Of a stretch of 64,000 nucleotides of DNA, positions 9,625 to 61,776 are shown one piece after another. The notes beneath the pieces are model-generated. The model made no database searches, was not told the origin of the DNA, and worked only from the letters and a program-made list of their open reading frames with translations. The stretch covers positions 53,089,349 to 53,153,348 of the forward strand of contig CP136062.1 in NCBI GenBank assembly GCA_032622095.1, written 5' to 3'. The position numbers were made by a program, and so were the translations under genes. Origin of the DNA: Siphonodentalium dalli. Taxonomy: Eukaryota > Mollusca > Scaphopoda > Gadilida > Siphonodentaliidae. Numbering within the stretch: the first letter of the stretch is position 1; the number at the start of each line of letters is the position of its first letter.

Positions 9625-10271
9625 TCATCCAGCCGAGCGGAGCATCATCGTGGTGTGCATCAAAAAGTTCCTGTCGAGATCGTAGTACCACCACATTCCG
9701 CGCCAAACTCCGTACGTTGTTTTTTGGTACTCTCCATTGAGGCTGCTCCATGTGCAACATTGGTACCACCACGCCCCGTGTTGGTCGATGGGACATGAAT
9801 CCCATGTACACCAGGATCCAGTTGGTGTGTGGTCGTTGTCAAACGTGCTGAAATTCCATCCGTCAACGTAGTCCATGGAATCGCCCGCGTCCCCGCTGTA
9901 TCCTGAGATGTGGAGAGTGTAGAGGTTTGATGCGTCGTCGATGCTGAAGCTGGAATATCGAGCATGTTTCTTCTGCCCGTCGTCTGTCGTCAGTGTTATG
10001 TACAGCTCGGTTCTGTCATTCGAGGAGAGTTGGTGAATGTTCTTCAGTCCGATCCAGTAGTTACCCTGTGGGGTTGGTTCACCAAATCCGTTTTCATACT
10101 CTATCCAGTTCCTGTAAAAATCAGTACACCCGTCTCGTCTCTGCTGCATAACAGTCCACCCGCCCCCGGCTGTCGTCATGTCGCAGACGACGTAGACTTC
10201 CGTGGCGTCACCTGGTGTTATTTTGTAGGTACCGTCATTTTGAACACCTGCTGCCTTCAATTCTTTACAAT
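9625..10271 (-). CDS. Gene 1 exon 6: fibrinogen-related domain (FReD), intact
   Basis: Terminal exon beginning after a TTTTATGTTGTAG acceptor; the first codon (Asp) is split, phase 1. It encodes about 215 residues of FReD: CKELKAAG, then VVCDMTTAGGGWTVMQQRRDG, the EYENGFGEPTPQGNYWIGL block, the FSIDDASN and GYSGDAGDSM segments, FSTFDNDH (calcium-site-like acidic residues), and SCPIDQHGAWWYQCC...LNGEY near the C terminus. It ends HTTMMLRSAG and a TGA stop. Length and motif order fit a complete FReD. It carries more Cys than a minimal FReD (for example adjacent CC after AWWYQ). The plus-strand frames over it are antisense shadows. Confidence 0.95.
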
Positions 10272-13200
10272 CTACAACATAAAAGCAACCAACGTACATA
10301 TAATATATGCCATGTAGTTGTATTCCATTACGTTGTACCTTCATGTACATGTAAACAATGTCTGTCACTTCGTATGAACTCCTTCACCAAATATGCAACA
10401 TGTACATAGGTACATGGTCTCCGTTATGGGTGTCCAATTGGAATTTCCACCGCACACGCCACCCGCCATTGATCGAGACCAATATTCCCAAATTCAGGAC
10501 AGTTTGTTCGCATCCCTCGGTTTGTACTTTTACAACTCTTACCTCAATATATCCATCTTTTGAACGTTTCCAATCTCTACCCCTTTGTTGGTAATTGTCC
10601 AGCCTAGTGGTAATTTCAGTCCAAAAATGTGACCAGCGTTTGGGGATCAAAACAAGGGCCATAACCCATTTACTAAATGTACGAATAAACCGAAAGAGCA
10701 GATATCTGTTACACATACTATTTCTGTCGAAATTAAGAAATTCCTGGTGGGCCCTATGCCAAAGATAATGGCTAAAATTTGAAGCACTGTACCTCTGCTG
10801 AAAATTGTGTATTGCTATATACCTAGTCTTAAGCAGTAATCACATCTACAAGCATTATCTCGGTGTGAATAGTGTAAATGGAATTACGAAATTGTTGGCA
10901 ATTTTAATTTTAATTGTTATGTATATACATACCTGCACCGGTTGCTGTTTGTTGCATTGTCGTGTTGGTTGTTTCTGTTTTACATCCTGTTGATTAAGAA
11001 ACAGTGAGATAATTTTCTCACTCAGAACAACACTACATATATGTGTGATACGGAGGGCTACTGTTACAATGGTGATTTTGACATAAGGGATGTGCACGGT
11101 AGTTCAGTAGAGAGTGAGTAATTATAATGTCCATGATATATTTCGCACCATGAGAGGAATCATAATTTTCTCAATCAATCACTGGATCAATTCAATAATT
11201 TTCATAGATGATTTATTCATAAAAATAAGTTAAAGACACAAACTCATAAATAGAGGATATGAAATGAGTGTTTCTCTCATATGATATTTATGAAACGAGT
11301 CTAAGAATTTTCAATTTTCTCGAGCCTCCGGCGAGAGAAAACTGAAAATTCGTGACGAGTTTCATAAATATCATATGAGAGAAACACGACTTACATATTC
11401 TATTTATCATATGACACCTATAAATTGATTATGATGTCCAAAACGCACACAAATCACTAAATAGCTATATGACATCGGCAGCAAAAGGTTAATGTGACGT
11501 CACTTCATTGCACCGGAAGCCCAATTACACCTGGTAAACTAGCAGAAATAATATGCACGCGAAGATATAGTGCGCTATTCTGTTTTCAGTTTGTGACATT
11601 ATATCGCATGTTTATTAGATCAATACGAATTACATATTCTATTTATCGTATAACAATGTCCAAAACTATATATTTCAAGATTATAATTGCGAGAATTTCG
11701 GCATCGCGTTGATTGACGCTCACGAAATTGACCTGCATTTAGTTAGAGATGCGGCTCGGCCCAGGCTGCCATTCAGCCAATCAGAACACACTTTTTGTTA
11801 ACAAAACAATTAAATTATCGGAAGGTGATATGAACTAGTAGTTCATATGAAATTGATTTATGACATACTTTCCAACGTAAATAATGATTGAGTCATATGA
11901 TAAATAAGGATATATATGTAATATATCTCATACGGTCATATCTTTATTCCTCATAGTAACATAATGGACTACGCTGTTATACAATGTAACGAGACATTTA
12001 AGTTAAAGGTACTCAATCCGATTCGATTGTCCCAATATAATCAGATTCCAACAACAACATTTTTAGAAATGCCGCCTCAGTTATCAGAATTGATATAGCC
12101 CATAAATAATGTCTATCAACTAAAGTATAAAATTACTCGAAACTTGTTACGTATCAACTTGTTGTTCGACGAAATTTGGCCTTTATGTCAGAAGAAAGCC
12201 TCTTGATTTTATGCATCTTCATCCGCAATTTGGTTCTCGTTGGTGAAATATAATACATTCGAAAAATCGGTATATAATAACTACTCTGAGCCATATGTGG
12301 GTTCCTCCTCTCGAATAAAATATTTTTTTACCAAATTTAATTGAAACAAATAGTTCCCAATAACAGAGCCAAGACATACAAAGAAGATGATGATATGTGA
12401 AATACGCGAGTTTTCGCTTGCATTTCTTTTCTGTATTTATGCCTAAAACACGTGCATAAAGGACTTATAATTATGGCCTTTTGTCTCGTCCCAGCTTATA
12501 TTCCGGTGCAACTAGTGTACAGAGAACAGATGGAGCTGCATATAATTGAGTCAGTTTTAATTTTAATTATTATGTATACCTGCTTCGGTCGTCATCGTTG
12601 TTGTTGTTGTCGTCGTCGTTGTTGTCGTAGTCGTTGTGGTCGTTGTTGTTGTTGTTTCACTTCCTGGTGGTGTGAGAAAGAGAGAATAATCTTCTATTCC
12701 ATCATAACAATGGAGATTATGTATAGTACATGTATATGATTTCCACTTGTAGGTGAAATAGATACTTTACTCGTATTTAAAATAACGCAATACAATTTTT
12801 CACGCGCCTATGTATGCGAATTTAAAACTGAGCTTTTTGGTCGTTTATCTTGCCCAGCGTCATATCTCGGTGCAACTAGTGTATATGGAAAAGCTGGATC
12901 TGCATTTCGTTGTGTCAGTTTCAATTGTGATTATTATGCATACCTGCTTCGGTTGTTGTTGCTGTTGTTGTCGTTGTTGTCGATGTTGTTGTCGTCGTTG
13001 TTGTCGTCGTTGTTGTTGTTGTTGTTGTCGTCGTCGCCGTTGTTGTTTTTGTTTTCGTCGTTGTTGATGTTGCTGGTAGTGTTGTTATTGTCGTCGTTGT
13101 TATTGTCGACGGTGTTGTTGTTGTTGATGTCGTTGTTTGTGTTGTTGTTGTCGGCGTCGTTGTTGTTGTTTCACTTCCTGGTGGTGTGATAAGGAAGAGT

Positions 13201-16165
13201 AATCTTCTATTCATTCATGTCAATCGATATCATGTATGGATTAGCGATCTCCACTTGTGGGTGGCATGGGATATCTTATTCGTATTTAAATTATGAAGTA
13301 CTAATTTTCACACACCTGTGTACACGAATTTAGAACTGAGCGAAAATTAGTACGACTCCTGGTTTATACGTAAACAAGGAGCATATGTTAATAAGATATA
13401 CATACATAAAGAAAGGCGATAAATAATGCATGGTCAAATCTGTTGTGGTTTTACTTCTTTCGAGTTCAGTTTCAAAGATGTCCATAACCATCCAAATATC
13501 ACAATGGATATTTGGATTATATAAACACTTCGCCCACATTCATAACTCAATCCAAAAATATAGCGAATCAGTTATATGTTATAGGTATAATTTCCTTCTT
13601 CTTCTTTTGCTGGACCATTATGTATCTTGTCCCATATATAAGTGTTCAATTGTCTTCGGTCAACATTTTCGCTGTACCAAAGCTACTTTAAACGGACATG
13701 GCTTATTCGGACCCTAAAGTTTATCCATACGTAATTCGGGAACATGGGTCTCAAAACATACATGTGTATTCCCGGGTTAATTAGTCGATAAAGCGCTAAA
13801 ATGCATTATGTTAATTATATATTTTTTGCGTAAATTTGATATCGTTTCGTTGCTCCTGTTAAATCAGCCGATCTCCCGAGTAATGACGCCATAAATTGTG
13901 CATTCTCGACACTGCCATATTTACACATCGTCTCAATCATTTTCAGTATGCGGTAAGGTGTTTGTGTTGGATCTTATTTGTCCATTCGAGAATAATAGTC
14001 TCTGTTGACAAGGATTTAATGATAGAACGGTTTTCCAGTTTATTACACACAATGTCAACATGGATTTTAGTCATTTGCATTGAACCATGGAACACATTAT
14101 TTTTTCTCAAATATACATGTACTCAAAAAGAAATTTTGCATAGTCGATAATAGTGAAAAAGAAATGGTATACACATTTGTCTCATGTCAATCTCACACGC
14201 AAATGGCTACTGTGACATATAATGTTTGGATGAATGTAGATAATGAGACAGCAGAGACAAAGTGGGCAGCGCATTAGTTTGATATGTTTATCGCACACGC
14301 AAGTACAAATATTTCCGCAATAATAGTTGCATGCAGTAAATGGACGTCACATTGGTTGGTGTTTGGCATTATAAATGAATATACTTACCGGCTCTACTGA
14401 ATGGAATGCAGCGGTATCTGGTATCACTGGTGAAGCTCGGCGAACATATTGATTTGGCGCCACATGGAGAGCTGACGCATGGGTGTGAAGGTTCCTGGAA
14501 GAATTGATTAGTTGAGCAACAGACCATGAACTGTTCAACATATATAAGCAGGGACGTAGATACAAGGGTAATGTTTCGCATCCCAACTGTAGTGGAAAAA
14601 CACCATGACTGTTTGATTCCCCTTTGCCTGACACGTCAACACTATACCTGGAAACTTTACACCACATATAGGTTGAAATTATTATCATTGTTTGATTTTA
14701 CAATAATTAATTAGAGGGAATTGTGTTGTCATGGGCCAACTGTATCATAATTATGTTGTCTACTATTTGCCTGAAATGGCCATTAGGGGGTGCCAGGTTG
14801 AAAATTGCCAACAGTTGATCTGGTCCAATGTGGAGTTCGGAAAGTTCAAGGTGGACACCCCAACAACGGCCATCTAGCCACATCCCTGTATACAAACTAT
14901 TAATTATTTAGAATATATGCCCTTCATGCGACGAAGCAGGTAATACCAACAATTGATTTGTGCTACGGTTTTATCCAAAGGAACCCACATTCGATTTGTA
15001 TTTATATTGTACGCAGCCAGATTAGGTCGAGATAATATGCCGATGCCATCATCCATCATCAATTATCTCCTCAATAAGATCAGTCGTTCAAATAATGTTT
15101 ACAAAAATATATCAGCAGAAGAACCGGACGGACAAAATCGTGAATATGTGACAAACTAAGGGACGCAAAAATATATAGGGATACAACTGGTGTATGCACT
15201 ATTTCTAGACGACGTGGCAAGCAACTTATGTACTATTTGTTGGAGTTATGAGGCTGGACGAAACAAATCTGAGAAATTTGACGCACGAAGGACCGTAACT
15301 TTGGGAAAACAATTGGGACAAACATGTATGCTTACTGAGATAGTATGGCAAGCGGACTTATGGAACTCAGCTCATATATGTTCGAGTTATTAAACCGGAC
15401 GCGAAAAATTGACAAACTAAGGTCCGTAACTCAGCCGAAGCAATCAGACCCACCTGGTTAGCTCACCGTGGTAAGCAACTTGTATACCCAAATTATCGAA
15501 ATTACGCAATCCAGTGTACTCCCGTTCTCGTCGATGTAGTATAATGCGAACATACAAGCCGCCTCCAACACTCGTTTTGTCAAGACCGATTCTAAACTTA
15601 TTAGACAAAAAAACAGAGATGCAGATTACTGAGATCGAATACACTCAGTAAACGTGATTTCCGTTAAGTAAAATATGTGTTGTGCTTGAAAAATATAGGT
15701 CGTTTGCATTGACAAAGCCTAAAGTCAACTTTAACTGGAAGGCCTTTCACCACTTATGGGCATAGTCTACCCAATCCTCTAGTTTATATTCAATTGAATG
15801 AAGCAATATCGATATAAATCTCAGTTTACTGTAAAAGCTGGTAAAAGATATATACATACCAGGACGGTCTTATGTGCGTATTCAAATGCACTGTCGTTAG
15901 GGATTTCTCTGCTTCCGTTTCCCAGGAAATGGCAGAGCTTCGTAGTCGTATCGTAGGCAACCTGTTGACATCCAAGCGTGTAAGCACACGCCCTTTGACA
16001 CCGCATCATGTTCAGACTATTCATGGTATGCATTATGGTCAGTGATGGATTTGGCACTATATTCATATCAGGTGGCTGGCATTGGTCGGCGATGGCATAC
16101 ATGCAGAGTGTGGTGACTGCAGCAAACGTCACCCCGGAAAGCCACATGACATCGCTCCGAGTCAT
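9625..16165 (-). CDS. Gene 1: PAN + EGF-like + mucin stalk + FReD secreted lectin-like protein
   Basis: Proposed CDS: join of 16165-15860, 14494-14389, 13177-12944, 12663-12580, 10986-10933 and 10271-9625 on the minus strand. It totals 1431 nt, 476 residues plus stop, and every junction has AG/GT signals and matching phase (0,1,1,1,1). Order: signal peptide (1-26), PAN/Apple-like (27-102), EGF-like (103-138), Thr-rich stalk (138-243), Cys/Thr/Gln linker (244-261), FReD (262-476). FReD proteins with N-terminal modules are known invertebrate lectins and immune receptors (FREPs, ficolin-like proteins); the role here is inferred. The start ATG has an in-frame TAG 18 nt upstream. Candidate poly(A) signals on the minus strand are ATTAAA at 9403-9398 and AATAAA at 9257-9252. 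Extra exons in the introns cannot be excluded. Confidence 0.8.
10933..10986 (-). CDS. Gene 1 exon 5: short Cys/Thr/Gln linker
   Basis: A 54-nt exon, phase 1-1, between a TTTCTTAATCAACAG acceptor and a GGTGCAG|GTATGT donor. It encodes GCKTETTNTTMQQTATGAG once flanking codons are completed. Its single Cys may pair with another chain or with the FReD. The paralogous exon at 54501-54448 has the same length and phase and differs by only a few residues, which supports it as a real exon. Confidence 0.8.
11246..11906. mobile_element. Insertion in a gene 1 intron, with a 155-bp fold-back
   Basis: Gene 2 lacks this block: its intron runs straight through the equivalent point (near 54750). In gene 1 the insert is bounded by direct ATAAATA copies (11246-11252 and 11900-11906), compatible with a target duplication. 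The left part is a near-perfect hairpin (about 11249-11405, arms about 70 bp, loop AGCCTCCGG). The phrase ACATATTCTATTTATC occurs near 11393 and again near 11631, so the element has internal duplication. No coding content. Confidence 0.7.
12003..12345. mobile_element. TTAA-flanked TIR element, right end lost, in a gene 1 intron
   Basis: Starts TTAA then AGGTACTCAATCCGATTCGA and is homologous along its length to the complete element at 31925-32375. The gene 2 intron has no such insert at the equivalent TTAA (about 54934). TTAA sites point to piggyBac-type mobilisation; this is an inference from the site only. The right terminal repeat is not recognisable. Confidence 0.65.
12580..12663 (-). CDS. 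Gene 1 exon 4: Thr-rich stalk exon
   Basis: An 84-nt exon, phase 1-1, flanked by CACACCACCAG|GAAGTGAAAC and GAAGCAG|GTATAC. It encodes 28 residues, nearly all Thr, opening GSETTTT and ending MTTEAG. Such Thr runs are typical O-glycosylation stalks. The exon and its flanking introns are a duplicate of exon 3 (12810-13280), with the same flanking phrase GTGCAACTAGTGTA downstream. Confidence 0.8.
12944..13177 (-). CDS. Gene 1 exon 3: long Thr-rich stalk exon
   Basis: A 234-nt exon, phase 1-1, with acceptor CACACCACCAG|GAAGTGAAAC and donor GAAGCAG|GTATGC. It encodes 78 residues, mostly Thr with some Ser, Pro, Ile, Ala and Lys, a mucin-like stalk. The TTG/TCG/GTT repeats on the plus strand are ACN codons on the minus strand, so this is a coding trinucleotide expansion. 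Plus-strand readings (Leu/Ser- or Cys/Arg-rich) are shadows. Confidence 0.8.
14389..14494 (-). CDS. Gene 1 exon 2: EGF-like module
   Basis: A 106-nt exon, phase 0 to 1, with acceptor AATTCTTCCAG|GAACC and donor GAGCCG|GTAAGT. It encodes EPSHPCVSSPCGAKSIC followed by about 12 residues, then YRCIPFSRAG. Four Cys (residues 108, 113, 119, 131) match the first part of an EGF domain; the last two Cys of a full six-Cys EGF are absent, so it is a short or degenerate EGF. The 5' phase matches the end of exon 1 exactly. Confidence 0.75.
15090..15510. repeat. Three diverged tandem units in intron 1 of gene 1
   Basis: Units of about 110-160 bp share CCGGACG, GACAAACTAAGG, CGTAAC and TGGCAAGCAACTT or TGGCAAGCGGACTT. 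The reading frames at 15190-15393 and 15444-15644 fall in this repeat and are not supported as genes. Confidence 0.55.
15860..16165 (-). CDS. Gene 1 exon 1: signal peptide and PAN/Apple-like domain
   Basis: A 306-nt first exon ending GTCCTG|GTATGT. Residues 1-26 are a typical signal peptide (hydrophobic core VMWLSGVTFAAVTTLCMY, cleavage likely after AIA). Residues 27-102 hold Cys at 29, 56, 60, 66 and 78, with MMRCQRACAYTLGCQQVAY and a KLCHFL end, the layout of PAN/Apple modules, which mediate protein or carbohydrate contacts. There is one N-glycosylation motif (NGS, residues 83-85). No second copy is in the window; that of gene 2 would lie past 64000. Confidence 0.8.
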
Positions 16166-17580: not shown

Positions 17581-20046
17581 ATGTTGATGAAAAATGTTCT
17601 ATTGTTATTCAGGGCATGTTAAGGAAATATAACTGTTATACATTGATATGTTTTATTGTTATTCAAGAGCATGTTGTGGAAATATAACAGCTATACATTG
17701 AAATGATTCATTGTTATTCAGGGGAAGGTTGGGGAAATATAACAGTTATGCATTAAAATGTTTTATTATTATTTAGTGGCTTATTGTGGAAATATAAGTT
17801 ATACATTGAAATCTTTTGTTCTTATTCAGGGGCAAGTTGATAAAATATAACAGTTATACATTGAAATATTTTGTTGTCATTCGGGGCCATGTTGAGGAAA
17901 TATAACAGTTGTATAAATTGAAATATATTATTATTCAGGGGCATGTTTTAAAATATAACAGTTATAAATTGAAATATTTTATTGTTATTCAGGTGCATGT
18001 TGGTGAAATATAACAGCTATACTTTGAAATATTTTATTATTCAGGGGCAAGTTGAGGAAATATAACAGTTATACATAGAAATATTTTATTGTTATTCAGG
18101 GGCAAGTTAAGGAAATATAACAGTTATGAATTGAAATATTTTATTGTTATTCAGGGCATGTTGTGGAAATATAACAGTTATACATTGAAATATTGTATTG
18201 TTATTCAGGGCCATGTTGAGGAAATGTAACAGGTATACATTGAAATGTTTTATTGTTGTTCAGGGCATTGTTGAGGAAATATAACAGGTATACATTGAAA
18301 TGTTTTATTGTTGTTGAGGGCCATGTTGAGGAAATATAACAGTTATGCATTGAAATGTTTTATTGTTATTCCGGGGCATGTTGTGGAAATATAACAGTTA
18401 TGCATTGAAAGGTTTTATTATTATTCACGGGCATGTTGTGGAAATATAACAGTTGTACATTGAAATGTTTTATTCTTACATGGGGCCATGTTGAGGCAAT
18501 ATAACAGTTATGCATTGAAATGTTTTATTGTTATTCCGGGGCGTGTTGAGAAAATATAACAGTTATAATTTGAATATTTGATTGTTATTCAGGGGCAGGT
18601 TGAGAAATTATAACAGTTATACATTGAACTGTTTTATTGTTATTCAGGGGCATGTTGAGGAAATATAACAGTTATACTTTGAAATATTGTATTGTTATTC
18701 AGGGCCATGTTGAGGAAATGTAACAGGTATACATTGAAATGATTTATTGTTGTTCAGGGCATGTTGAGGAAATATAACAGTACTGTTATAAATTGTAATG
18801 TGTTACTGTTATTGAGGAGCAAGTTGGTGAAATATAACAGTTTTTGATTGAAATATTGTATTGTCATTCAGGGGCATGTTGAGGAAATATAACAGTTATA
18901 CATTGAAATATTTTATTGGTATTCAGCGGCATGTTGCGGAATCAAATTTATACATTGAAATATTTTATTGTTATTCAGGAGCAAGTTGAGGAAATATAAC
19001 AGTTATACACTGAAAAGTTTTATTGCTATCCAGTGGCATGTTTTCGAAATATAACAGTTATACATTGAAATGTTTTATTGTTATTCAGGGGCAAATTGGG
19101 GATATATAACAGTTATACATTGAAATGTTATATTGTTATTGGGGGCATGTTGAGGACATATTACAGCTATACATTGAAATGTCCTATTTTTATTCAGGAG
19201 CATGTTGAGGAAATATAACAGTCATATATTGAAATGTTTTATGTTTATTCAGGGCCATGTTAAGGAAATATAACAGTCATACATTGAAATGATTTTTTAT
19301 TATTCAGGGGCATGTTGCGGAAATATAACAGTAATAAATTGAAATGTTTATATTTTTATTATAGGGGCATGTTGTGGAAATATAACAGAGATACATTGAA
19401 ATGTTTTATCATTATTCAGCGGCAAGTTGAGGAAATATACCAATTATATATTGAAATGTTCTAATGTTATCAGGGACACGTTGTGGAATATAACAGTTAT
19501 ACATTGAAAGGTTTTATTGTTATTCACGGGCATGTTGTGGAAATATAACAGTTTGTACATTGAAATGTTTTATTCTTACTTGGGGGCATGTTGAGGCAAT
19601 ATAACAGTTATGCATTGAAATGTTTTATTGTTATTCCGGGGCATGTTGAGAAAATATAACAGTTATAATTTGAAATGTTTGATTGTTATTCAGGGGCAAG
19701 TTGAGAAATTATAACAGTTATACACTGAAATGTTCTATTGTTACTGAGGGGCATGTTGACGAAATATAACAGTTATACATTGGAATGTCTTATTTTAATT
19801 CAGGGGCATGTTGAGGAAATATAAGTCATATATTGAAATGTTTTATTTTTATTCAGGGCAATGTTGAGAAAAAATAACAGTTATACTTTGAAATATTTTA
19901 TTATTATTCAGGGGCATGTTGCGGAAATATAACTGTACTACATTGAAATGTTTATATTTTTATTGATGGGCATGTTGAGGGAATATAATAGTTATACATT
20001 GAAATGATTTATTGTTATTCAGAGGCATGTTGTGGAAATAACAGAG
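17581..20046. repeat. 55-bp satellite array, block 1
   Basis: About 45 head-to-tail units of 55 bp. A typical unit reads ATGTTGAGGAAATATAACAG, then TTATACATTGAAATG, then TTTTATTGTTATTCAGGGGC. The period was measured between successive GGAAATATAAC phrases (for example 18385 to 18440). Units differ by substitutions and short indels. Because 55 is not a multiple of three, the short reading frames are incidental. Confidence 0.95.
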
Positions 20047-32961: not shown

Positions 32962-34480
32962 TGCACACGGCACAGAAGGTTTCAAAGACAGGGGTGGTCC
33001 GGGCGGTGTTTAGTCACACCCATACATACGGTACAGAAGGTTACAAAGACAGGAGTGGTCCGGTGGTGTTTAGTCACACCCATACATACGGTACAGAAGG
33101 TGACAAAGACAGGAGTGGTCCGGGCGGTGTTTAGTCACACCCATGCACACGACACAGAAGGTGACAAAGACAGGAGTGGTCAGGGCGGTGTTTAGTCACA
33201 CCATGCATACGGTACAAAAGGTGTCAAATACAGGAGTGGTCCGGACTGTGTTTAGTCACACCCATACACACGGCACAGAAGGTGTCAAAGACAGGGGTGG
33301 GCTGGGCGGTTGTTAGTCACACCCATACATACGGTACAGAAGGTGTCAAAGACAGGAGTGGTATGGGCGGTGTTTAGTCACACCCATACATACGGTACAG
33401 AAGGTGTCAAATACAGGAGTGGTCCGGACTGTGTTGAGTCACACCCATACACACGGCACAGAAGGTGTCAAAGACAGGGGTGGTCTGGGCGGTGTTTAGT
33501 CACACCCATACATACGGTACAGAAGGTGTCAAAGACAGGGGTGGTCCGGGCGGTGTTTAGTCACACCCATACACACGGCACAGAAGGTGTCAATGACGGG
33601 TGGTCCGGGCGATGTTTAGTCACATCCATACATACGGCACAGAAGGTGTCAAAGACAGGGTGGTCCGGGCGGTGTTTAGTCACATCCATACACACGGCAC
33701 AGAAGGTGTCAAAGACAAGGGAGGTCCGGGCGGTGTTTAGTCACACCATACACACGACACAGAAGGTGTCAAAGACAGGGGAGGTCCGGTGGTGTTTAGC
33801 CACACCCATACACACGACACAGAAGGTGTCAAAGACAGGGGAGGTCCGGGTGGTGTTTAGTCACATGCATACACACGGCACAGAAGGTGTCAAATACAGA
33901 GGTGGTCCGGGCGGTGTTTAGTCACATCATACACACGACACAGAAGGTGTCAACGACAGTGGTGGTCCGGGCGGTGTTTAGTCACACCATACACACGACA
34001 CAGAAGGTGTCAAAGACAGGGGTGGTCCGGACGGGGTTTAGTCACATCATACACACGACACAGAAGGTGTCAAAGACAGGGGTGGTCCGGGCGGTGTTTA
34101 GTCACATCATACACACGACACAGAAGGTGTCAAAGACAGGGGTGGTCCGTGTGGTGTTTAGTCACACCCGTACACACAACACAGAAGGTGTCAAAGACAG
34201 GGGTGGTCCGGGCGGTGTTTAGTCGCACCCATACACACGACACAGAAGGTGTCAATGACAGGGGTGGTCCGGGCGGTTTTTAGTCACATCATACACACGG
34301 CACAGAATGTGTCAAAGACAGGGGTGGTCCGGGCGGTGTTTTGTCACACACATACACACGCCACAGAAGGTGTCAAAGACAGGGGTGGTCCGGGCGGTGT
34401 TTAGTCACATCATACACACGGCACAGAAGGTGTCGAAGATAGGGGTGGTCCGGGCGGTGTTTAGTCACATCCAAGCATTC
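32962..34480. repeat. 60/61-bp minisatellite, about 25 units
   Basis: Head-to-tail units of the form ACAGAAGGTGTCAAAGACAG, then GGGTGGTCCGGGCGGTGTTT, then AGTCACACCCATACACACGGC. Spacing is 61 bp in the left part (33336 to 33397) and 60 bp in the right part (33900-34140). The 60-bp units stay in frame, which creates artefact frames of 203, 111 and 72 residues with a repeating HTTQKVSKTGVVRAVFS peptide. There is no start context, upstream exon or outside similarity to support coding. Confidence 0.9.
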
Positions 34481-43590: not shown

Positions 43591-44035
43591 AAAACCCCCT
43601 GAGGTTGTTGTTGTTGTTTTTTATTTAAACCCATAATTAGGCGTTTTTGTATGATTCTAACACACGGCAAGGACTTTTTCCTGTCAAAGTAATGTACATT
43701 TTTCCAATAGCTTCAATAACATGGACAATTGAATACGGTTGTGATTACATCAATATTTCGTCAGAAATTATTTACTCAGACTGTCAAATTGTCCAAGTAA
43801 TCATTTCAAATCATCAGAAAAATCACAATTTAAATGGGCCAGAGAATTTCTGTCAACGAGTGATTATACATCTACATAATATGTGGTTAATTGTTCTTCT
43901 GTGATATCGATTTGCAGTCATTTCAACGATGTTAGCATCCGTACCTTCCTATATCGCACGGGCTATGCGTGAACGGATTATCCCGATCGGTGGTCCGATT
44001 ACCGTGTTGGAGATACGCGGGTGACCGGTGTAGTT

Positions 44036-44130
44036 ATGTATAGCTCAGTTATACTAGTTGAGAAGAGTTGGCGAATGTTCCTCAGTCCGATCCAGTAGTT
44101 ACCGTATGGAGTTGGTTCATCACATAAGAC
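44036..44130 (-). pseudogene. FReD fragment (middle of the domain)
   Basis: One frame reads EPTPYGNYWIGLRNIRQLFS followed by TSITELYIT, matching EPTPQGNYWIGLKNIHQLSS of gene 1. The rest of the domain is missing on both sides. It lies on the same strand as the complete FReD exons. Confidence 0.85.
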
Positions 44131-44189
44131 GATAATTGCATGTATCATTCGTATCGGGACCACCACTATCATCCCACTCACCGAAGCAT

Positions 44190-44268
44190 CATCATGGTGT
44201 GCTTCCTTGCATTTGGGTCAAGATCAAGGTACCATTCAATTCCGTAATCAGTTGCGCTAAGGTATGTC
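44190..44268 (-). pseudogene. FReD fragment (C-terminal end)
   Basis: The frame reads YLSATDYGIEWYLDLDPNAR then KHTMMMLR and stop, matching the last residues of the gene 2 FReD. It precedes the middle-domain fragment in transcription direction, so the two pieces are out of order: either a rearrangement or remains of two decayed copies. Confidence 0.85.
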
Positions 44269-45224: not shown

Positions 45225-45871
45225 TCACACTCGCCGAGGCATCATCGTGGTGTGTTTCATGACATTTGGGTTAAGATCATGGTACCATTCAATCCCATAA
45301 ACATTTGCACCAACATGTGTCACATTTAGATACTCTCCGTTGATGTGACTCCAGAAACAGCAGTAATACCACCACGCCCCGTGACGTGTGATGGGGCATG
45401 ACTCGGCGGGACATGCGGGATCGGGGTGGTCATTGTCAAACGTGCTGAACGGCTGCCCGTCGTGTATACATATCAAAGATTCGCCCGCGTCCCCGCTATA
45501 TCCTGACACGTGGAGAGCGTAGTAACTTGAAGCGTCGTCGATACTGAAACTGGAATAGCGAGCAAATTTATTCTGTCCGTCTGCTGTTGTCATCGTTATG
45601 TACAGCTCGGTTGTGCCATTTGATGAGAGTTCGCGAATGTTCTTAATTCCGATCCAGTAGTTACCGCGTGGGGTTGGTTCACCAAATCCGTTTTCGTACT
45701 CTGTCCAGTTCCTATAGAAATCAGTGCATCCGTCTCGTCTTTGTTGTATTACCGTCCATCCGCCGTCATATGTCGTCATGTCGCAGACGACAGTAATTTC
45801 TGTGGCGCCATCTGGTGTGATCCTGTATGAGCCGTCATTAAAATGTCCTGCTTCCTTCAACGTTTTACAAT
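45225..45871 (-). CDS. Gene 2 FReD exon, open throughout
   Basis: Acceptor TTTATGTTACAG, first codon split (phase 1), then CKTLKEAGHFNDGSYRITP, VVCDMTTYDGGWTVIQQRRD, EYENGFGEPTPRGNYWIGI, FSTFDNDH, SCPITRHGAWWYYCC...INGEY, and ending GIEWYHDLNP then HTTMMPRRV and TGA. It is similar to the gene 1 FReD along its whole length and has the same exon length (647 nt), so the domain itself is not decayed. It carries extra Cys in the LICIHDG and DPACPAESC segments. Translation depends on an upstream exon set whose EGF exon appears broken. Confidence 0.85.
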
Positions 45872-46139
45872 CTGTAACATAAACACAACTAACGTATATA
45901 TGTATATCAGTTTGATTCCATTAATACTGTACCTTCGTGCACATTACACAATGTTTGATGGACCATGTATGTCAGTTCATACGAATTTCTTACGAAATAT
46001 TCAATAGGATGTTATTGAACAGAGAGGTAGCTACAGTCTTCGTTATGGGTATCCGCTTAGAATATCCACCGCATCCCGGCCTTGAAGGACACCAATATCC
46101 CAAAGTTCAGGACAGTTTATTCACGTACCCACTATGATA

Positions 46140-47294
46140 TGAATTTTCCAAGTTGAAAATTCCCATCATGAATCCCCTCATGGTTGGCAAATTTCCAACT
46201 GAGGGTCAATTTCATTCCAAACATTTTACAAAAAACATTACACTAAATACTGGTTGGGATATCAAACTGTCAGAACAAAGTCATTCCTATGTTAGTCTTG
46301 TGTTGCTACTAATGTTGTGCCAGACATGTAATGTCCAACTGGTGGAAATTGTATCAGCAAAGATCCATGTCACTACGTCCATAATGTCAGGAACATGGGT
46401 GAAGGGCCGCTTTGTGGGTGTCCACCTTGGCATTTCTAACTGCACCCCGCCCCCTTAACGGAGACCAAATTCCATTTGCACCCCTAATAGCCCAGTGGCT
46501 CAGGGCCAACATTTAGCAAAATCGGATTAAAGCATGAAACTTTGCCGATGTGTAAAATGGGATATGGGAAACAATTTTTGGAGGGGAATGCCCGGGCTGG
46601 TCATGGTTTCTGAGAATTTCTGGTTTCCATGGTAACAGCATATAATATTTTGGGAAAAGTGAAAAAAATGCCTAGGTTTGGAAACAATTAGATTTGTGTT
46701 TGCATAAATGATGTGAACTCATAGTGCAACCAGTGGCCCATCAAATGAACTGGGGCACAATGACATATAGGGTCAAGGTCAACCACTAAGGTCAAGGTCA
46801 TTGGGAAAATGTAATTTTTCTGTCTATTTTTTATTGATGGTCTCATACGGCGCCAATCCTAATGCCTTAGTCATAAATGCAGTCCCTTTCATAAATGCAT
46901 AAATATTTTATTTCATACGGCTATTGTTTAGTTTTGGTAACCTTAAGTCCAGATCATCACATTTTTAGATACCACTTTTAAGGTAAATCAAGTGAACTTT
47001 AAATTTACCCTCACATATGAACATTAAATGTAGTAATACAACGTAAATATAGAGCCATTTTGTTGGGTTAATATTATTATTAGAGTTTTCAGGTTGAGTT
47101 GGTAATTTTAATATATAATACATATCGTTTTGCCGTGGCAACTGCTATCGAAAATATCGCAAAATTCAGAATGAAAATGATGAGGCTTGCGAATTATTTT
47201 CCGAGAAAAAATTCCACCAGCAGGTCCTGTATCAGAAATTCATTCACTTTGAAGGTAAAATATGGACTTATATGAACATAATTGTGGTTTCCAT
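46140..47294. other. Intron sequence with dispersed repeats
   Basis: Lies in the last intron of gene 2. The 46010-46130 part is homologous to 10420-10520 of gene 1 (CTTCGTTATGGGT through AATTCAGGACAGTTT). Phrases such as GGTCAAGGTCAACC and TTCCATGGTAACAGC are repetitive in character. No gene. Confidence 0.5.
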
Positions 47295-50200
47295 GACAAC
47301 CATTATCCCAAGTACTGTCACAATGGCCAATTCCAGTTCCTACACATTGGCTATTTGATTGATTTGTGACACTATTAATTATGCTATCTGTTCTTGGTTT
47401 CTAAAGAGACAAGAGAGGATATAGCATCAGACCCTGAAATTTATCAATGGCTGATGGTTTCATATTTAAATTACTTCATGAGTGTAAATGCAATGAATAA
47501 AGACGATGACATGATACATTCAAGATATTCGTTGGATAAATCGAGATAATTTATTCATTGGAAATTTCATGCATTCCTTGTTTGGATTTATGCAAAACTT
47601 GCAATGCTCTAATATAGCAGTATACGATATCACGGATTGTAGGAGGGCTAAAAATGATAAAAAAAAATAACTATATGGGGGCATAATTGTCAGTGTATCC
47701 TGCGTTAAATGTGACGCTATGTTGGTCTGATTATTTTACGTAACTGTTAATGTTAACAAAAAATGTTAATTATTTTCGTATTCAGTGCAGGCCAACTTCG
47801 TCTGTTTTTGGTTATCGGAATAGCCCGATTGCGTCCCCTTAATGTTGTCATCTCCACTTGACAATATTCAGAAATTGCTATAATAACTGTTTTCTATTTC
47901 AGATATGTTCAGTTCTGTTGTAGCTATATAATGTATGATAAGCTTATTTATTGACATTCGCTCTGTCATACTTGGTCTACTTTTGGGTTGAAAATGATAA
48001 ACGTATTCAAAATTGATTGGTAGAATGGAGCAAGGAGCATAACTCATTGGCAAATTGAACGAACAAACCTAAAGTACATATATTTTTGACACATACTATT
48101 TCTGTCAAAAATAAGAAATGTCTGATGGGGCCTTTTCCAAAGACAATGACTCAGTATTGATTTGAAGTACAGTACCCCGTCTCAATATTGGCCAAAAGTG
48201 CTGGAAATTGTGTATTGCTATCTAAGTCTTAAGTGCTACTTCATCTCCTGTCACAGACATGGAATATATCCTAGTAAGGGAATTTTAGCAGACGGAATTT
48301 CAGTGGAGACAGGTGAGAGCCGTCAGTGGTGAATAATTAATCGGTTTTCTCTACACAGAGATTGCTGTACTATTTATAGAAAATCAATACTTTTGGGCAT
48401 CTCGCATGCTGATTGGTCAATGTCGAGTATAACAAATATATGTTGTTGGAATTTATCAAAAGTCTTCGGACTTCTCACCTGTCAAGATCAAGAGCCGAAA
48501 TAAAGAGGCATCCCGCAGTGAAAATGGTCATGGAGAACACGGTCAGCCAAATGCATTGGTTGCCTTTACTATCGCCTAGCAGAAGACCGGAAAGTGGTCG
48601 GAGGTGTCTTTTGAAGAAAGACCAGTGGTAGGCTGGTAATATATTGTGAATCCCAGGTATTTGTTGACCAACGTGTGCTTCCATGACGTTTTTATTTGGG
48701 TTAAGCAGATCGAAGATTTACGAGAATCAGTGAGCATCCAATTCTCATTTTTTGGCATCCATAGGAATGCAAACCCTGATGGTAGACCAGTGGAAGAATC
48801 AATTCATGGAGAGATCATGCGCAGAGGCTGCGACATGTTGGGTATACATACTAAATTGTGCGACCAAATATTGTATGCACCATGAACGATTCTCATTTTG
48901 GTATCCCCTCGATTGGTAGTTTAAATTTAATTTGCGCTCTTTTATGGGCGACCTCTCAGTTGGACTCCTTCATATATTAGCAATTGTGGCTTGCTGATTT
49001 TTAATAGCTACTTGGTCCCCAACTGTCACACCAACTTGGGTCTGATGTGGGCAGCCACCGATAAGCAGACGATAGCCGATGAGAAGAGGTATCCCTCAGA
49101 GAATTCACGGTCAGCCAAATACATTGGTAACCCTTACTATCGCTTGCGATATATTGGAATCCGAGTATTTGGTGACCAATATGAACACCCGTTGGCGCAT
49201 CTCAATGTGGCGTACCTTAAAACATAAAAATGATTCACTGAGATTGGTCCATGCTTGGTTGGTCTCCCACTCGTTGACAACCTTCACAGCCAGACAATTA
49301 CCTGGGAAGACCAGAAAGCTCTTTAAGAATGATAAGGCGATGGGCTGGCTGTGTGGGTATGTCCTGTGTGCGATCCAACCTTGCACGATCGATATTCAAT
49401 TTTGATAAGATTACTTTTGCAGAATTTGTGTGGTTGGCTGCCCTTGTCTGTCTTGGTGGTTGGACGACAATTGGCTCCCAAGAAAATTGGCATGCAAGAG
49501 GAGCTGAAGTTGGGCGCCGTCACAGTGACACCACATGGTTAACACACTGAGGGCTTTTCACTTCATTTAGACCGGCGATAAGTAATTATAGAAGCCTTTT
49601 TGGACAATATGGCATCCCTGATTCCGGGTTGGCATCTCAGATGGAGCTCTAGTTCGGTGTCGACCATCAGAGGCGGACCAGGCAGATATAAAATGGATAA
49701 CCAGTGATGATGGTAACCAGAAAAGGTATACCCACTTGATTTTTTGGGACAACCTGTCTGATGGTCGATCACCCTGGGTTGAGTGACCGGACCAGATATT
49801 TCAATCAACGACTCCGTCGCAGATGGCAGGCACTCAACCCCGTCAGCAACACGTGATATGCCAACCCTCGTGATCCTGTGGCTACCTGACATATGCATAG
49901 ATATTGACGAAGACAATGCCGAGTTATACCACTTGGTTGACGAGCCATACCGGAGTCACACCAACCTGGACACCCTAAGGTCTTAGAATAGTAGGCGCAT
50001 ATTAAAGCTGTACAGACGAGATAGGCAGGAACCCAAGAGCTGTGTCCAGGCTGGATGTACTGGTATGTGTCGCCAAACACGGTGCGTTGGTCATATTTTA
50101 AATAGAGAAACTGCGGCATGGTAACGTCCTCCAGATGTGCGCCTTTTGTTTGATGAAGATGTGAAAATGAATAACCATGTCGAAATGCCCTCGGCCATGT

Positions 50201-50740
50201 GGTTTTGATGGTGGAATCTGATAATAACTAGGGCCAGGTGGGAAATGTGGTTTCTCCCCTTAGTATGCGGTAGAGCTGAGACTGGGGCTAGATGGAAATG
50301 TAGTTTCCCTCCCAGTGGTCCCACTGTCGAAACCTATGAGAATACAAATCTTTCATCAAACAAAGGTCGGCGTCACGGATTCCTTCCCTTGTGGTGCACA
50401 CTGGGTCTGATGTAAATTTACAAAGGCGAGGGTACTAACCTATAGATCATGATTTATCAATGTGGTGTCCATACTATACAACGCCCTGTACTACTTCAGG
50501 CTGCGAATGCAGAAATGGTTTCTCTCTGCACATGGTCGGGTAGATGACGATTTCGGTCATGGAAGTCAAGGGGAAAACAAACTCAAGACATATACATTTG
50601 TTGACAAATCGATATCTGACTGCTGATATGCAGCTGGCGTGACGGTCTAGATGTACGATTCGAGTGTCCGTGAATTACAACCTGACTAGGTTCTGTCCCT
50701 TAAACTGGCAGTAGACGGCACAGCCATTTATTTTTCCGGA
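47295..50740. repeat. Tandem duplication, copy 1 (3446 bp), in a gene 2 intron
   Basis: Starts GACAACCATTATCCCAAGTA and ends CAGCCATTTATTTTTCCGGA, the same phrases that bound copy 2. Contains a stretch (48090-48240) homologous to the gene 1 intron at 10711-10850. Reading frames (for example 117 residues at 49563-49916 and 108 at 49079-49405) recur in copy 2 with frame damage and have no recognised domain. Confidence 0.9.
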
Positions 50741-53700: not shown

Positions 53701-53942
53701 CTACTTCAGGCTGGCGAATGCAGCAATGGTTTCTCTGCACATGGTCAGGTAGATGGCGATTTCGGGCATGGAAGTCAAGGGGAAAACTGACTCAAGACAT
53801 ATAAATTGTTGACAAATCGATATTTGACTGCTGATATGCCGTGACGGTCTAGATGTACAATTCGAGTGTCCGTGAATTACAACCTGACTGGGTTCTGCCC
53901 CTTAAACTGGCAGTAGACGGCACAGCCATTTATTTTTCCGGA
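50741..53942. repeat. Tandem duplication, copy 2 (3202 bp)
   Basis: Aligned to copy 1 along its whole length at high identity. It lacks about 190 bp present in copy 1 near 48735-48925; the deletion point sits at a short TTCTCATTTT homology that bounds the missing piece. Small indels account for the rest of the length difference. Confidence 0.9.
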
Positions 53943-54447
53943 ACTTAACGTCAAAAGGGATGCCGTTTCTGTCGTAAAGGTCCAAATTGAGTGTGACATG
54001 GACATTAGCAGGGATCTCAGCAAAGAATATGAGGGGGCTCACTCCAAAAGGATTAGATTTTATTTGGTGTGCATTGGGAACCGAAGAGACTTATTTTGAA
54101 GGCACACTACCATTTGTCGGAATAATTAGTTTTTGGCTCGTGACATTAGACACGTAATGCAGTTCCGATGGATTTGCGGATTTGGCGGTTACGTGTTGCA
54201 AATTTGAAACCCCGTGCACGTTATATAGGTGTAAAAATGCATGCGTAATTGTTAGAGTGTAAAGGGAGATGCGAGATCTCCATGCAACCTATCGGTGTAA
54301 ACTGTGTCATGCAGGTTTGTAAATAGTTCAAGTGTAACTTTACGGAGATGTGAGATCTCCAGGCAACATCTCGGTGTGTAGATGAAAGGGAACTTCGGGA
54401 TTTTCGCCAGTGTTCATTCTAATTATTATGTGTAGACATGTACAAAC

Positions 54448-54501
54448 CTGCACCAACTGCTGTTTGTTGCATTGTAGTGTTCATTGTTTCTGTTTTACAT
54501 C
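54448..54501 (-). CDS. Gene 2 linker exon
   Basis: A 54-nt exon, phase 1-1, with acceptor TTTCTTAATCAACAG and donor GGTGCAG|GTTTGT. It encodes GCKTETMNTTMQQTAVGAG, matching gene 1 exon 5 with three replacements. Neighbouring intron sequence (54500-54700) also matches gene 1 (10990-11210). Confidence 0.75.
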
Positions 54502-55120
54502 CTGTTGATTAAGAAACAGTGAGGTTATTATATATGTGTGGCACGGAGGGCTACACTGTTACACTGGTTATTTTGAGCCAAATGAGGTACACGATAATTC
54601 AAGGGAAATAGAGAGTGAGTAATCATAATGTCCATGATATATTTCGCAATCATGAGAGGAATCATAATTGTTTCGATCAATTCAAGAATTTTCATAGTCT
54701 TCTTAGTTATAAAAATAAATTAAAGAAAGAATCTGATAAATAAGGATATATCTGTAATATAGCAACATATTAATTCGATACCATGTCGGTTAACCAATGA
54801 CACATTGTGCTTCAGGTGAGTTATTTATAGGCTATAAATCTACACTCAAATCTCGGACCGTGATATCTTTCTTCCCCATTGTAACATAATGGATACCCCG
54901 TAGTATGCTGTTATACCATGTAACTAAACATGTACGTTAACTTTTGGGCACAAATGAGTTACCAATAATAGAGCCAATGCCATAAGATATGCAATGAAGA
55001 TGATGATATGTGAAATTCGAAAGTATTCGCTTGTATTTCCTGTCTTGATTTATGCAGAATAGAACGTGCGTATATGCCCTAATGCACTAAGATCGTTTAC
55101 CTCATACCAGGGCTATATAT

Positions 55121-56707
55121 CGATGCAGCAGGGGGGGGCCGATTTTTTTTTACGAGACATCAGGTGGGGGGTGGTGGGTGGTTAACCCGAAGCCGGAAAC
55201 AGTTTTTGACCACCTTTTTTGCATTTTTTTTTTCATTGACATATTTTCAACTGTTTTAAACATATTTGTTTATTTGTTGTGGCTTGTTGCAATATGAGAA
55301 GCACTAATACATTCAATATTGTTATAATTACCCCCATAAGTTGATATAAAATGGAAAAATAGTGAATATTGTTGGGGTGGGTCCCAAAATTTTCATTGAT
55401 TTTTTTGGCGCGCATTTTTTTTTATTGTGTCTGTTTCAGCTTGCTTGGCAGTTTTTATATTGAAAATTGTCTAGTTCACGGTGTAGATCAATAAAAAAAT
55501 ACTTCAGATAGCTCTAGGGTAGGGTGAACTTAATGCAGTCTGACAATATCAGCTAACAACTCATGACAGAATATTACAATAATTCTTATACTTTACTCAT
55601 ACAGTTAGTTGATGCATGAGTGTAATGTATGAACTAAATATTTGTATCAGTGTTTGTATACTAAATTGATTTTTAAATATACTTTTGTCAAATAATTATT
55701 TGAATTGTCAAATTATTTGTTTCAGTGTTGTTGACAACCATCAATAAGTAAATAAGTAGACATGAAATAAAGTTTTAATAACATTTATTGAAAGAAACAA
55801 AAATATAACCTTCCTTGGATAGTCTTCTGAAAAGTATTACTAGTATGTAAATGACACTTAATGTCTAATTCAGGCTAATTTGAAAATTATCAAAGAAGAA
55901 AATTAATTTACTTAATTATTGTATATTTATAAGATGATGTGCATGCAAGGAGGTCTAGTTTGAAGGCACACATAAAGGTTATGTACCGAATGTGTGTGAA
56001 TTTCTTATTGCACATGAACTCCATCCAGTACAAGACCGAAGTTCAGCTCTGATTGTCCAAATGAATCTCAGTAATATACATATGTGTATATGGATTTGGC
56101 ACTAAATTGACCATCAACGTTCAAACTCAAAGGGTTAAGCATTAATTTAGGCCTAGTTCTAAGTCGTAATGCGAGGTCGGGTCGGTGGTCATGCAGGCAT
56201 ACATAAAAGTTAATTCGTACACTGGTTCATATGCACATTTTCCTTTTTGGTATTACTATAGGCTCTAGGCCTACTAGTTGATGCTGGTTGATGTCTGAAA
56301 AAAGATAAATTTAAGTTTGTGTAATTTTTTATTCTACTGTAGGCCCTAACACTGGCCCTAGTTATTTTTGTTGTCATTCCAGGGGATTCAACATATTTTT
56401 CATCTACTCACCAGCTGTACTCACACAGATGAATAGGCTGGGTTATAAATTTACCAATATAATCACATAATATTCTACCTTTGTTGATTGCTTAGAGTTC
56501 AATTTTGCACATGTTTGTTAACAGGAAGTAACATTTAATTTGGTCTTTCAAAGAAGGGACCAATATAGAGCGGTTGGTCGTTTTTTACAGAGGGGACCAA
56601 CATAAAGTTTTGATGTTTTGGGGTGGGTGTCTAAAATTTTATGAAAAAAAAATGCAAGAAAGGGTGGTTGGGTGTAAAAAAAATGCCCCCCCCCCCCCCA
56701 CGATGCA
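55121..56707. mobile_element. 1.57-kb hAT-like insertion in a gene 2 intron
   Basis: CGATGCA occurs on both sides (55121-55127 and 56701-56707). The ends are CAGGGGGGGGCCGATTTTTT on the left and, inverted, a G run then CATTTTTTTTACACCC on the right. The equivalent gene 1 sequences (near 12500 and 12865) run uninterrupted as CGGTGCAACTAGTG, so the empty site is CGATGCAA and the duplication is probably 8 bp with a changed last base. An 8-bp duplication and CAGGG ends fit hAT. No transposase frame was recognised. Confidence 0.7.
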
Positions 56708-56799
56708 AGTGTAATATACATGTATAACTAGTAAATATGCATGGAGCAGCTGGAGCTGCACATTTCTGTGTCAGTTTTAATTGTGAGTATTATGCATAC

Positions 56800-56862
56800 C
56801 TGATTCAGACGTTGTTGTCGACGTTTGTGTTGTTATCGACGTCGTTGTTGTTGTTTCACTTT
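56800..56862 (-). CDS. Gene 2 Thr-rich stalk exon
   Basis: A 63-nt exon, phase 1-1, with acceptor CACACCATCAG|AAAGTGAAAC and donor GAATCAG|GTATGC. In the original frame it encodes ESETTTTTSITTQTSTTTSES. Only one such exon was found, against two in gene 1. A (GA)n microsatellite follows at 56876-56899. Confidence 0.7.
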
Positions 56863-57104
56863 CTGATGGTGTGAGAAAGAGAGAGAGAGAGAGAGCGAGT
56901 AATATTATGTTCATTTATAACAATGGATATTATGTTTGATGTATGATTTACACTTATGTGTGAGAAGAGATACCTTACTCGTATTTCCCTTACTCGTATA
57001 ATTATATAGTATGTATCTACACGTAGTTAAATAAGCGCAGTACTATTTTTAGCGCACCTATGTACGCGAATTTAAAAATGAGCGAAAAGTAGTACGACTC
57101 CTAA

Positions 57105-61300: not shown

Positions 61301-61671
61301 ACAAATTCAGGCCGCGATTGTTTTGTCTCTTTGTTTTATATGTAGCTTGTTTTGACTGGCTAATGATGAGTGAGGTGGGATAAATTGTAATTTGACTGGC
61401 CTCAAGATTTCCAAATGTTGGAAATTTCCAAACTGACACTAAGATCGGAAAATTTCCGTCGATAGCTTTGACCGAATGTAGGAAAGTGGTGTGAAACCCA
61501 ACAAATTTCCCACTAATTACCAATTATCCCCACCCAATATCAACGCCCGAGTCCCTGTTACAACAGTCGTTTCTTAAGAGAATGCCCACGGGTATTCTTA
61601 AAATTGGCGTAAAAATAACACCCATGTGATCAAAAAGCTTGAGTATTGTCAACTAATATGAATATACTCAC
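58391..61671. other. Gene 2 intron between the EGF and Thr exons
   Basis: Parts match the gene 1 intron (58445-58540, 58955-59000 and 59775-59900 against 13435-13560, 13625-13670 and 14160-14300). A G homopolymer lies at 59342-59357. The 156-residue frame at 59101-59571 and the 132-residue frame at 61125-61523 have no recognisable domain and lie within the intron. A short TATAACCTG triplicate is at 60890-60918. Confidence 0.5.
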
Positions 61672-61776
61672 CGGTCCTATGGAATGGAATGCAGCGGTAT
61701 CCGGTGTCACTGCTGACGCTCGGCGAACATATCGAGTTGCACCACATTCAGAGCTGATGCATGGGTGTGAGGATTC
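61672..61776 (-). pseudogene. Gene 2 EGF-like exon with a 1-nt deletion
   Basis: Acceptor TTCTTCCAG|GAATCC and donor GGACCG|GTGAGT. It starts ESSHPCISSECGA, matching gene 1, but one base is missing where gene 1 has AAATCAATATGT (here ACTCGATATGT). The third and fourth Cys are lost and the phase changes to 0. The length is 105 nt; gene 1 has 106. Confidence 0.8.

Follow-up and report, generated by a model that had tools for sequence, protein, structure and literature searches.

A predicted PAN, threonine-stalk and fibrinogen-related domain gene family in the scaphopod Siphonodentalium dalli, with a front end that appears also to precede C-type lectin and WSC exons

Introduction

Immune diversity in molluscs has mainly been told through the Ig-based FREPs. 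The VIgL proteins of Biomphalaria (FREP, CREP and GREP) join one N-terminal scaffold to alternative heads, including a fibrinogen-related domain (FReD) and a C-type lectin domain, as described in PMC5433772, and PMC8878817 states that VIgLs are restricted to Heterobranchia. PAN together with FReD has been reported for some FReDs of Lottia gigantea, for 4 genes of Crassostrea gigas and for one Biomphalaria FREP (PMC7588048).

The gene described here lies in a window of 64,000 nucleotides of the S. dalli genome (contig CP136062.1, positions 53,089,349 to 53,153,348). Its likeness to the PAN/Apple-FReD proteins of molluscs is the presence of PAN and FReD in one protein, here by predicted joining of exons. 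The Biomphalaria PAN-FReD protein carries an Ig domain as well, whereas the window protein shows no Ig match, and the available part of PMC7588048 does not mention a Thr stalk, a shared cassette or swapped heads, all predicted here, for mollusc PAN-FReDs. The arrangement resembles that of the VIgLs, but the scaffold consists of PAN, a 4-Cys module and a Thr stalk instead of Ig. As in rotifers, the FReD stands behind a low-complexity, in rotifers sometimes Thr-rich, region, although rotifer FReDs have no detectable N-terminal domain according to the available part of PMC8878817 and PAN is present here. Bivalve C-type lectin proteins include WSC and C-type lectin among their domain combinations, while the main text of PMC10140915, as available, makes no mention of PAN/apple. 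FReM proteins (EGF and FReD) require an EGF domain, unlike the window protein with its 4-Cys module lacking a Pfam EGF match. No report of head swapping on a PAN front end was found in the literature searched.

Results

Gene model and domain identification

Six minus-strand exons between positions 16165 and 9625 could be joined to a frame of 1431 nt (476 aa and a stop codon), as a sequence-only reading of the window had proposed. All five introns have GT..AG borders and the phases agree throughout (intron 1 in phase 0, introns 2-5 in phase 1). The exons, taken from the gene model and, for exons 1, 2 and 6, also from Pfam searches, are as follows.

15860..16165, minus strand: exon 1, with the start codon, a hydrophobic leader resembling a signal peptide (residues ~1-26) and the PAN domain
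14389..14494, minus strand: exon 2, module of ~36 aa with 4 Cys, no Pfam match
12944..13177, minus strand: exon 3, Thr stalk A, 234 nt, class 1-1 (symmetrical)
12580..12663, minus strand: exon 4, Thr stalk B, 84 nt, class 1-1
10933..10986, minus strand: exon 5, 54-nt linker with one Cys, class 1-1
9625..10271, minus strand: exon 6, FReD and stop codon

Profile searches bore out most of the domains proposed in that reading. The C-terminal FReD matched Fibrinogen_C with 167.2 bits (whole protein, Pfam cut-off 22). For the PAN domain, PAN_1 (PF00024) scored just above its cut-off of 21.4 bits with the whole protein (21.7 bits) and reached 25.3 bits with exon 1 alone. The same profile matched all 25 aligned PAN-exon peptides, chosen from 49, at E≤0.01; one of them matched RNase_PH_C as well, by chance. 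The Thr stalk was equally evident, with 79 Thr among the 105 residues 139-243. The short EGF assigned to exon 2 had to be given up: no Pfam EGF was found at E≤10 in the N-terminal 140 aa or at E≤1 in the exon alone, and the module contains 4 Cys instead of 6, so the label is unsupported.

In a Pfam search at E≤10, whose profiles did not include mollusc-specific Ig profiles, the whole protein gave only PAN_1 and Fibrinogen_C. An IgSF domain is absent at this level, and the proposed difference from the Ig-FReD snail FREPs holds for the PAN, stalk and FReD order. The same search gave no collagen-like N-terminal region; the FReD is preceded by PAN, the 4-Cys module, the Thr stalk and the linker. 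Exons 3 and 4 share, together with their intron flanks, pieces that are 78-82% identical, which suggests that exon 4 arose from exon 3 by tandem duplication including the flanks.

A second copy of the gene was found in the same window, with the following parts.

45234..45872, minus strand: second FReD exon, 67% identical to the FReD of the window gene
54449..54502, minus strand: linker exon
56786..56875, minus strand: Thr-rich stretch with exon-like borders
61670..61776, minus strand: 4-Cys exon with a one-base frame slip

Near this 4-Cys exon, no PAN was present among the matches listed (150 of 294 PAN candidates scored). Judged from its sequence, this second copy is broken.

Paralogues and exon borders

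The possibility of a lone gene was rejected, as paralogues were found elsewhere in the genome. One locus (L001) keeps the order of PAN (69% identity), 4-Cys (81%), Thr, a linker-like stretch and FReD (75%); the stretch similar to exon 5 is not directly preceded by AG there. PAN, 4-Cys and FReD are present at two further places (L044+L043 and L002+L003), and three diverged loci (L004, L045 and L046) contain PAN, Thr and FReD, with an additional weak 4-Cys match in L004. Stops occur in some family members, with none in any of the 24 aligned FReD exons.

The exon borders are conserved as well. A GT donor stands at the same place in 49/49 PAN exons compared and a phase-1 acceptor precedes 24/24 FReD exons, the window exons included in both sets. 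For the 4-Cys exon, an AG acceptor was seen in 17/17 rows and a GT donor in the matching position in 15/17, the rows representing 16 different copies with the window copy entered twice. Because the order is kept in paralogues and both the PAN donor and the FReD acceptor are invariant, the gene model is more than a chance arrangement. The six-exon PAN, Thr stalk and FReD model is considered confirmed, with its splicing predicted from genomic DNA; where exons are separated by as much as tens of kb, their joining is likewise a prediction.

The front end before other candidate heads

For the pairing analysis, 46 PAN exons of at least 50% identity were taken from the 150 scored candidates, leaving out two short fragments on contig C1 (83930146 and 83930075). 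They were compared with 52 of 113 4-Cys rows (the best-scoring and those near the 46 PAN exons), at least 100 FReD places and 90 of 117 C-type lectin domain (CTLD) rows, both on contigs C1, C2, C5, C7, C8 and C9, and all 18 WSC rows. Among the matches listed, which limit all counts in this paragraph, a 4-Cys exon followed downstream on the same strand in 38/46 PAN exons (0/46 with strands flipped) and was missing within 40 kb in 8/46. A FReD, CTLD or WSC exon was located within 60 kb downstream on the same strand in 20/46 (FReD 10, C-type lectin 5, WSC 5), compared to 0/46 with strands flipped, while 26/46 had none of the three heads within this distance. A control that looked upstream instead, again on the same strand, found a head in 12/46 and a 4-Cys exon in 3/46, reflecting tandem arrays; individual PAN-head pairings can therefore be wrong. 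Two PAN-WSC pairings stretch over 43 and 57 kb.

One example of each other head was verified by profile (Lectin_C 38.6 bits, cut-off 22.6; WSC 67.3 bits, cut-off 27.8). The introns joining cassette and heads are in phase 1: this phase was found for the acceptor in 4/4 WSC exons read and in CTLD exon A of the one locus read. At C7:99.94 Mb, the 4-Cys exon and the CTLD are separated by a class 1-1 Thr exon. By predicted joining, the front end of PAN + 4-Cys appears to precede C-type lectin and WSC exons as well, at other sites in the genome.

In the PAN tree, the five CTLD-type PANs group together as a single clade (support 100/95). The head labels require 3 changes on this tree versus 9.1 when shuffled; taken singly, FReD requires 3, WSC 2 and CTLD only 1. 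A topology uniting the 10 close FReD-type PANs was not rejected (AU p 0.171), which leaves the number of head swaps unsure. Cys-rich exons were also noted at 33 places on C8, and those near the PAN exons at C8:106.588 and C8:107.527 would fit a fourth head, as judged by eye and without a control.

Variation of the FReD and its putative binding pocket

Variability was calculated from 19 of the 24 FReD sequences and regional dN/dS from 17. Residues 134-203 hold 17 of the top-20 variable columns (P 5.7e-7 for clustering, with region borders set after viewing the ranking), and dN/dS is 0.39 there versus 0.23 in residues 1-133. At the variable columns dN/dS is only 1.09, though these columns were picked for variability. 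The FReD median is 0.29 (136/136 close pairs), and no pair exceeded 1 among the 185 usable of 276 pairs or among the 136 close ones; positive selection across the whole FReD is not supported. For the PAN exon, the mature part showed a median dN/dS of 0.29 (8 of 775 used pairs above 1, from 820) and the leader part 0.68 (230 of 798 used pairs above 1).

As a profile, the FReD was closest to ficolin-2 in PDB, followed closely by tenascin-R and FIBCD1, while the window FReD alone matched tenascin-R best, then MFAP4, both ahead of ficolin-2. The family is similar to ficolins and FIBCD1 in its FReD profile, in the DxD motif and in 4 Cys aligned with those of ficolin-2, and differs in the lack of a collagen stretch, in an extra invariant Cys pair (155 and 172) and in the pocket. 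The DxD motif is presumably the Ca site, and the roles of the pocket residues are assumed likewise. D145 and D147 are present in at least 90% of the 24 FReDs and several positions around the pocket are variable. The second pocket Cys is followed by His in ficolin-2 but in only 5/19 family FReDs, so that acetyl binding of the ficolin kind may be missing or changed.

Discussion

The window gene probably encodes a secreted recognition lectin of a family in which a PAN + 4-Cys cassette is combined with FReD, C-type lectin or WSC heads by phase-1 shuffling. It would be a secreted, non-membrane protein with a leader, PAN, the 4-Cys module, an extended, putatively O-glycosylated Thr stalk and a C-terminal ficolin-type FReD, the latter binding glycans or other surface patterns. 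Cys residues of PAN and linker may link chains, and the protein could act in immunity as an opsonin or agglutinin. The N-terminal cassette, with a Thr stalk in some members, would have acquired its heads through phase-1 exon shuffling, duplication of symmetrical 1-1 exons would vary the stalk length, and the FReD copies would diverge mostly in the part carrying the binding face. The suggestion of a little-described lectin class held in part: a recognition lectin is plausible, but the family is large and PAN with FReD has already been reported in molluscs (PMC7588048).

A rather unlikely reading takes the protein for an adhesive or structural part of mucus, shell matrix or a gel and not for an immune molecule; PAN and FReD would then cross-link the matrix, and the Thr stalk would serve as a mucin. 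The Thr-rich stalk (79/105 residues) and the lone Cys of the linker would suit this role, and tenascin-R, which the single FReD sequence matches best in PDB, is a matrix protein. Epiphragmin has a FReD. It is cited as a snail mucus protein in PMC7588048. The large expansion of the family, the concentration of FReD variation in 134-203 and the two further heads of lectin or carbohydrate-binding type behind the shared front end nevertheless fit recognition better. It is also unlikely that the multi-headed family is illusory, the CTLD and WSC genes being separate neighbours of PAN/4-Cys genes in tandem arrays and only PAN-FReD forming one gene. Such an arrangement would account for the 26 of 46 PAN exons lacking a head and the 12 of 46 with one upstream (among the matches listed), and the PAN-head joins are predicted from genomic DNA. 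Against it stand the zero of 46 with strands flipped (among the same matches), the single CTLD-type clade, the Thr exon at C7:99.94 Mb and the CTLD and WSC acceptors, which are in phase 1, as needed. The window gene would very improbably be a decayed or unexpressed copy: the second copy is broken and some family members have stops, but here the whole frame is open, every splice border is GT-AG and the conserved PAN and FReD Cys are present.

It is an even question whether this family represents an independent, PAN-based counterpart of the VIgLs, a non-Ig modular repertoire with at least three heads, perhaps a fourth Cys-rich one, and diversified FReD binding faces. It would then be a second head-swapping scaffold, a sign that the modular exchange of heads has arisen as a solution more than once, and would provide a gene set for testing how invertebrate recognition diversifies without antibodies.

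Apart from this family, a search for haemocyanin as a mollusc marker gave no match, and neither did its control. A peptide-pattern scan of the genome gave 82 matches compared to 336 in the reversed control; 80 of the 82 were located in repeats, as judged by eye, and two in a single locus, which holds a precursor of amidated peptides of the RPGW/KPGW type, a mark of molluscs. Its ORF, at C2:148.65 Mb, carries the RPGWGK repeat five times and the KPGWGK repeat twice.

Window gene and its predicted protein

The six minus-strand exons of the window gene (16165-9625) joined into one frame of 1431 nt, coding for 476 amino acids and a stop. All introns had GT-AG borders, with phase 0 for intron 1 and phase 1 for introns 2-5, which bore out the exon positions, frame and agreeing phases of the sequence-only reading. 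Its PAN and FReD assignments also held in profile searches: PAN_1 scored 25.3 bits for exon 1 alone and 21.7 bits in the whole protein (Pfam cut-off 21.4), Fibrinogen_C reached 167.2 bits in the whole protein, and Pfam gave nothing beyond these two at E<=10. Exon 2, previously taken to be EGF-like, contains four Cys and had no Pfam match, and is therefore named the 4-Cys module. The Thr stalk was recovered as 79 Thr among 105 residues (139-243), presumably glycosylated. In the hydropathy profile the N-terminus forms a hydrophobic stretch ending in AIA-DQC, which fits a putative signal peptide, and no transmembrane-like stretch was seen past this leader (highest 19-residue mean after residue 30, 0.62).

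The stalk and linker exons (234, 84 and 54 nt) each lie between phase-1 introns and have lengths divisible by three, so duplication, loss or skipping of any one leaves the reading frame intact. Pieces of exons 3 and 4, including intron flanks, are 78-82% identical, and the two look like tandem duplicates made together with these flanks. A short way upstream of the gene lies a long tandem array with a 55-base unit (window 17592-20000, searched to 20000). Open frames at window 33256-34283 consist of short SHPYTRHRRCQRQGW-like units in tandem and probably represent a minisatellite.

A broken second copy was found in the same window:

45234-61776, minus strand: second gene copy, with FReD, linker, Thr and 4-Cys exons in order
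44032-44243, minus strand: scrambled FReD fragments, a short way downstream of the second FReD exon

The 4-Cys exon of this copy carries a frame slip of one base, and no PAN match stood beside it among the matches listed in the genome PAN search.

Family across the genome

Paralogues were searched for in the window's own genome (2.23 Gb, 9 contigs). The PAN exon gave at least 150 matches (150 scored among 294 candidates), the 4-Cys exon 113 (all 142 candidates scored), the FReD exon at least 150 (150 scored among 631) and the Pfam FReD model at least 150 (150 scored among 677). Locus L001 (contig C2:54.44 Mb) keeps the order of the window gene on a single strand: PAN and 4-Cys, then a Thr stretch, a linker-like peptide and finally FReD. 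No AG stands immediately upstream of the L001 linker, so this exon may be skipped there. PAN, 4-Cys and FReD are also present at L044+L043 and at L002+L003. The diverged loci L004, L045 and L046 carry PAN, a Thr stretch and FReD; of the three, only L004 gave a 4-Cys match, and a weak one (29% identity, E 0.83). PAN_1 was found in all 25 family members scanned (chosen from 49), and a profile of these had a single relative with E below 0.001 among solved structures, the PAN protein micronemal protein 4 (E 5e-6).

Identical PAN peptides in opposite orientations occur at C7:100.09 and 100.12 Mb, and identical CTLD (C-type lectin domain) peptides at C7:99.94 and 102.21 Mb, 2.3 Mb apart; both pairs are recent segmental copies or retained haplotypes.

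Different heads behind one front end

The PAN and 4-Cys exons, together the front end, also precede C-terminal domains (heads) other than FReD. At C7:99.94-99.95 Mb a class 1-1 Thr exon of 186 nt comes next, and then two last exons, which read as a C-type lectin domain with terminal stop (Lectin_C 38.6 bits, cut-off 22.6). WSC exons (Pfam WSC 67.3 bits, cut-off 27.8) lie behind the front end at C7:203.34 Mb.

The survey of heads covered 46 PAN exons of at least 50% identity, counting same-strand matches within 60 kb (4-Cys: 40 kb) and before the next such PAN exon. Among the matches listed, a 4-Cys exon lay downstream of 38, and the heads were FReD in 10 cases, CTLD in 5 and WSC in 5, with none of the three in the other 26. 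The strand-flipped control gave 0/46. Upstream on the same strand, 12/46 had a head and 3/46 a 4-Cys exon, as in tandem arrays, which leaves long single pairings, such as those with WSC over 43 and 57 kb, unsure. In the PAN tree, the five CTLD-type PANs form one clade (support 100/95). FReD required 3 label changes and WSC 2, and all three labels jointly 3 versus 9.1 in shuffles. A tree that unites the 10 close FReD-type PANs is compatible with the data (p 0.171), so a single origin for each head is possible.

Two C8 loci have Cys-rich exons downstream of the front end, a possible fourth head seen without a control comparison. At one, L042 (C8:106.59 Mb), the exons behind PAN and 4-Cys have similar counterparts at 33 places. 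At L048 (C2:53976550-53986450), a FReD apparently split by several introns lies downstream of PAN and 4-Cys exons; it could represent an older form of the gene or belong to a neighbour.

The exon borders are conserved. A GT donor follows the PAN exon in 49/49 copies. The 4-Cys exon has an AG acceptor in 17/17 rows (16 different copies) and a GT donor at the same place in 15/17, the exceptions being the broken second copy and locus L036. Phase-1 acceptors precede the FReD exon (24/24), the WSC exon (4/4 read) and the CTLD exon (the one read), as head exchange behind the same donor needs. Phase-1 exon shuffling is an established concept, and the combination of modules fits it.

Diversity of the FReD

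The aligned FReD exons (n=24) share six invariant Cys. Four align with those of ficolin-2; the pair 155, 172 comes on top of these. Of the 20 most variable columns, 17 fall within residues 134-203 (19 of 24 sequences; hypergeometric P 5.7e-7, with borders set post hoc), the part with the Ca site and ligand pocket in ficolins. Pooled dN/dS (136 pairs of 17 sequences) was 0.39 for residues 134-203 versus 0.23 (1-133) and 0.21 (204-215), so the frame is constrained and the 134-203 face freer to vary. A value of 1.09 was obtained in 17 columns whose choice, for variability, is circular. This pattern suggests that the face may have diversified adaptively.

Likely function and known systems

The anatomy of the window gene and its family are directly observed; the product of the predicted splicing is most likely a secreted recognition lectin, possibly multimeric, serving as opsonin or agglutinin. 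The FReD would bind microbial or foreign surface patterns as its ligand, the PAN domain and Cys-bearing linker would hold partners or other chains in oligomers, and the protein would have an immune role. The main alternative is that it serves as an adhesive in mucus or matrix: the best PDB match of the single window FReD is tenascin-R and that of the family profile ficolin-2, so a matrix role is compatible by similarity.

PAN with FReD has been reported in some of the FReDs of Lottia, in four genes of the oyster and in one FREP of Biomphalaria (PMC7588048), and PMC10140915 mentions WSC in C-type lectin proteins of bivalves. The VIgLs, snail immune lectins described as restricted to Heterobranchia (PMC8878817), pair an Ig scaffold with a FReD, a C-type lectin domain or a galectin domain (PMC5433772); here a PAN front end would be joined to FReD, CTLD or WSC. 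No account of one PAN front end common to these three heads was met in the literature searched, in which subscription papers are thinly covered.

A genome search for mollusc haemocyanin gave no match, and its control queries gave none either. A precursor resembling those of neuropeptides, a likely molluscan marker, was found at C2:148652500-148654100 (L038); it carries RPGWGK five times and KPGWGK twice.
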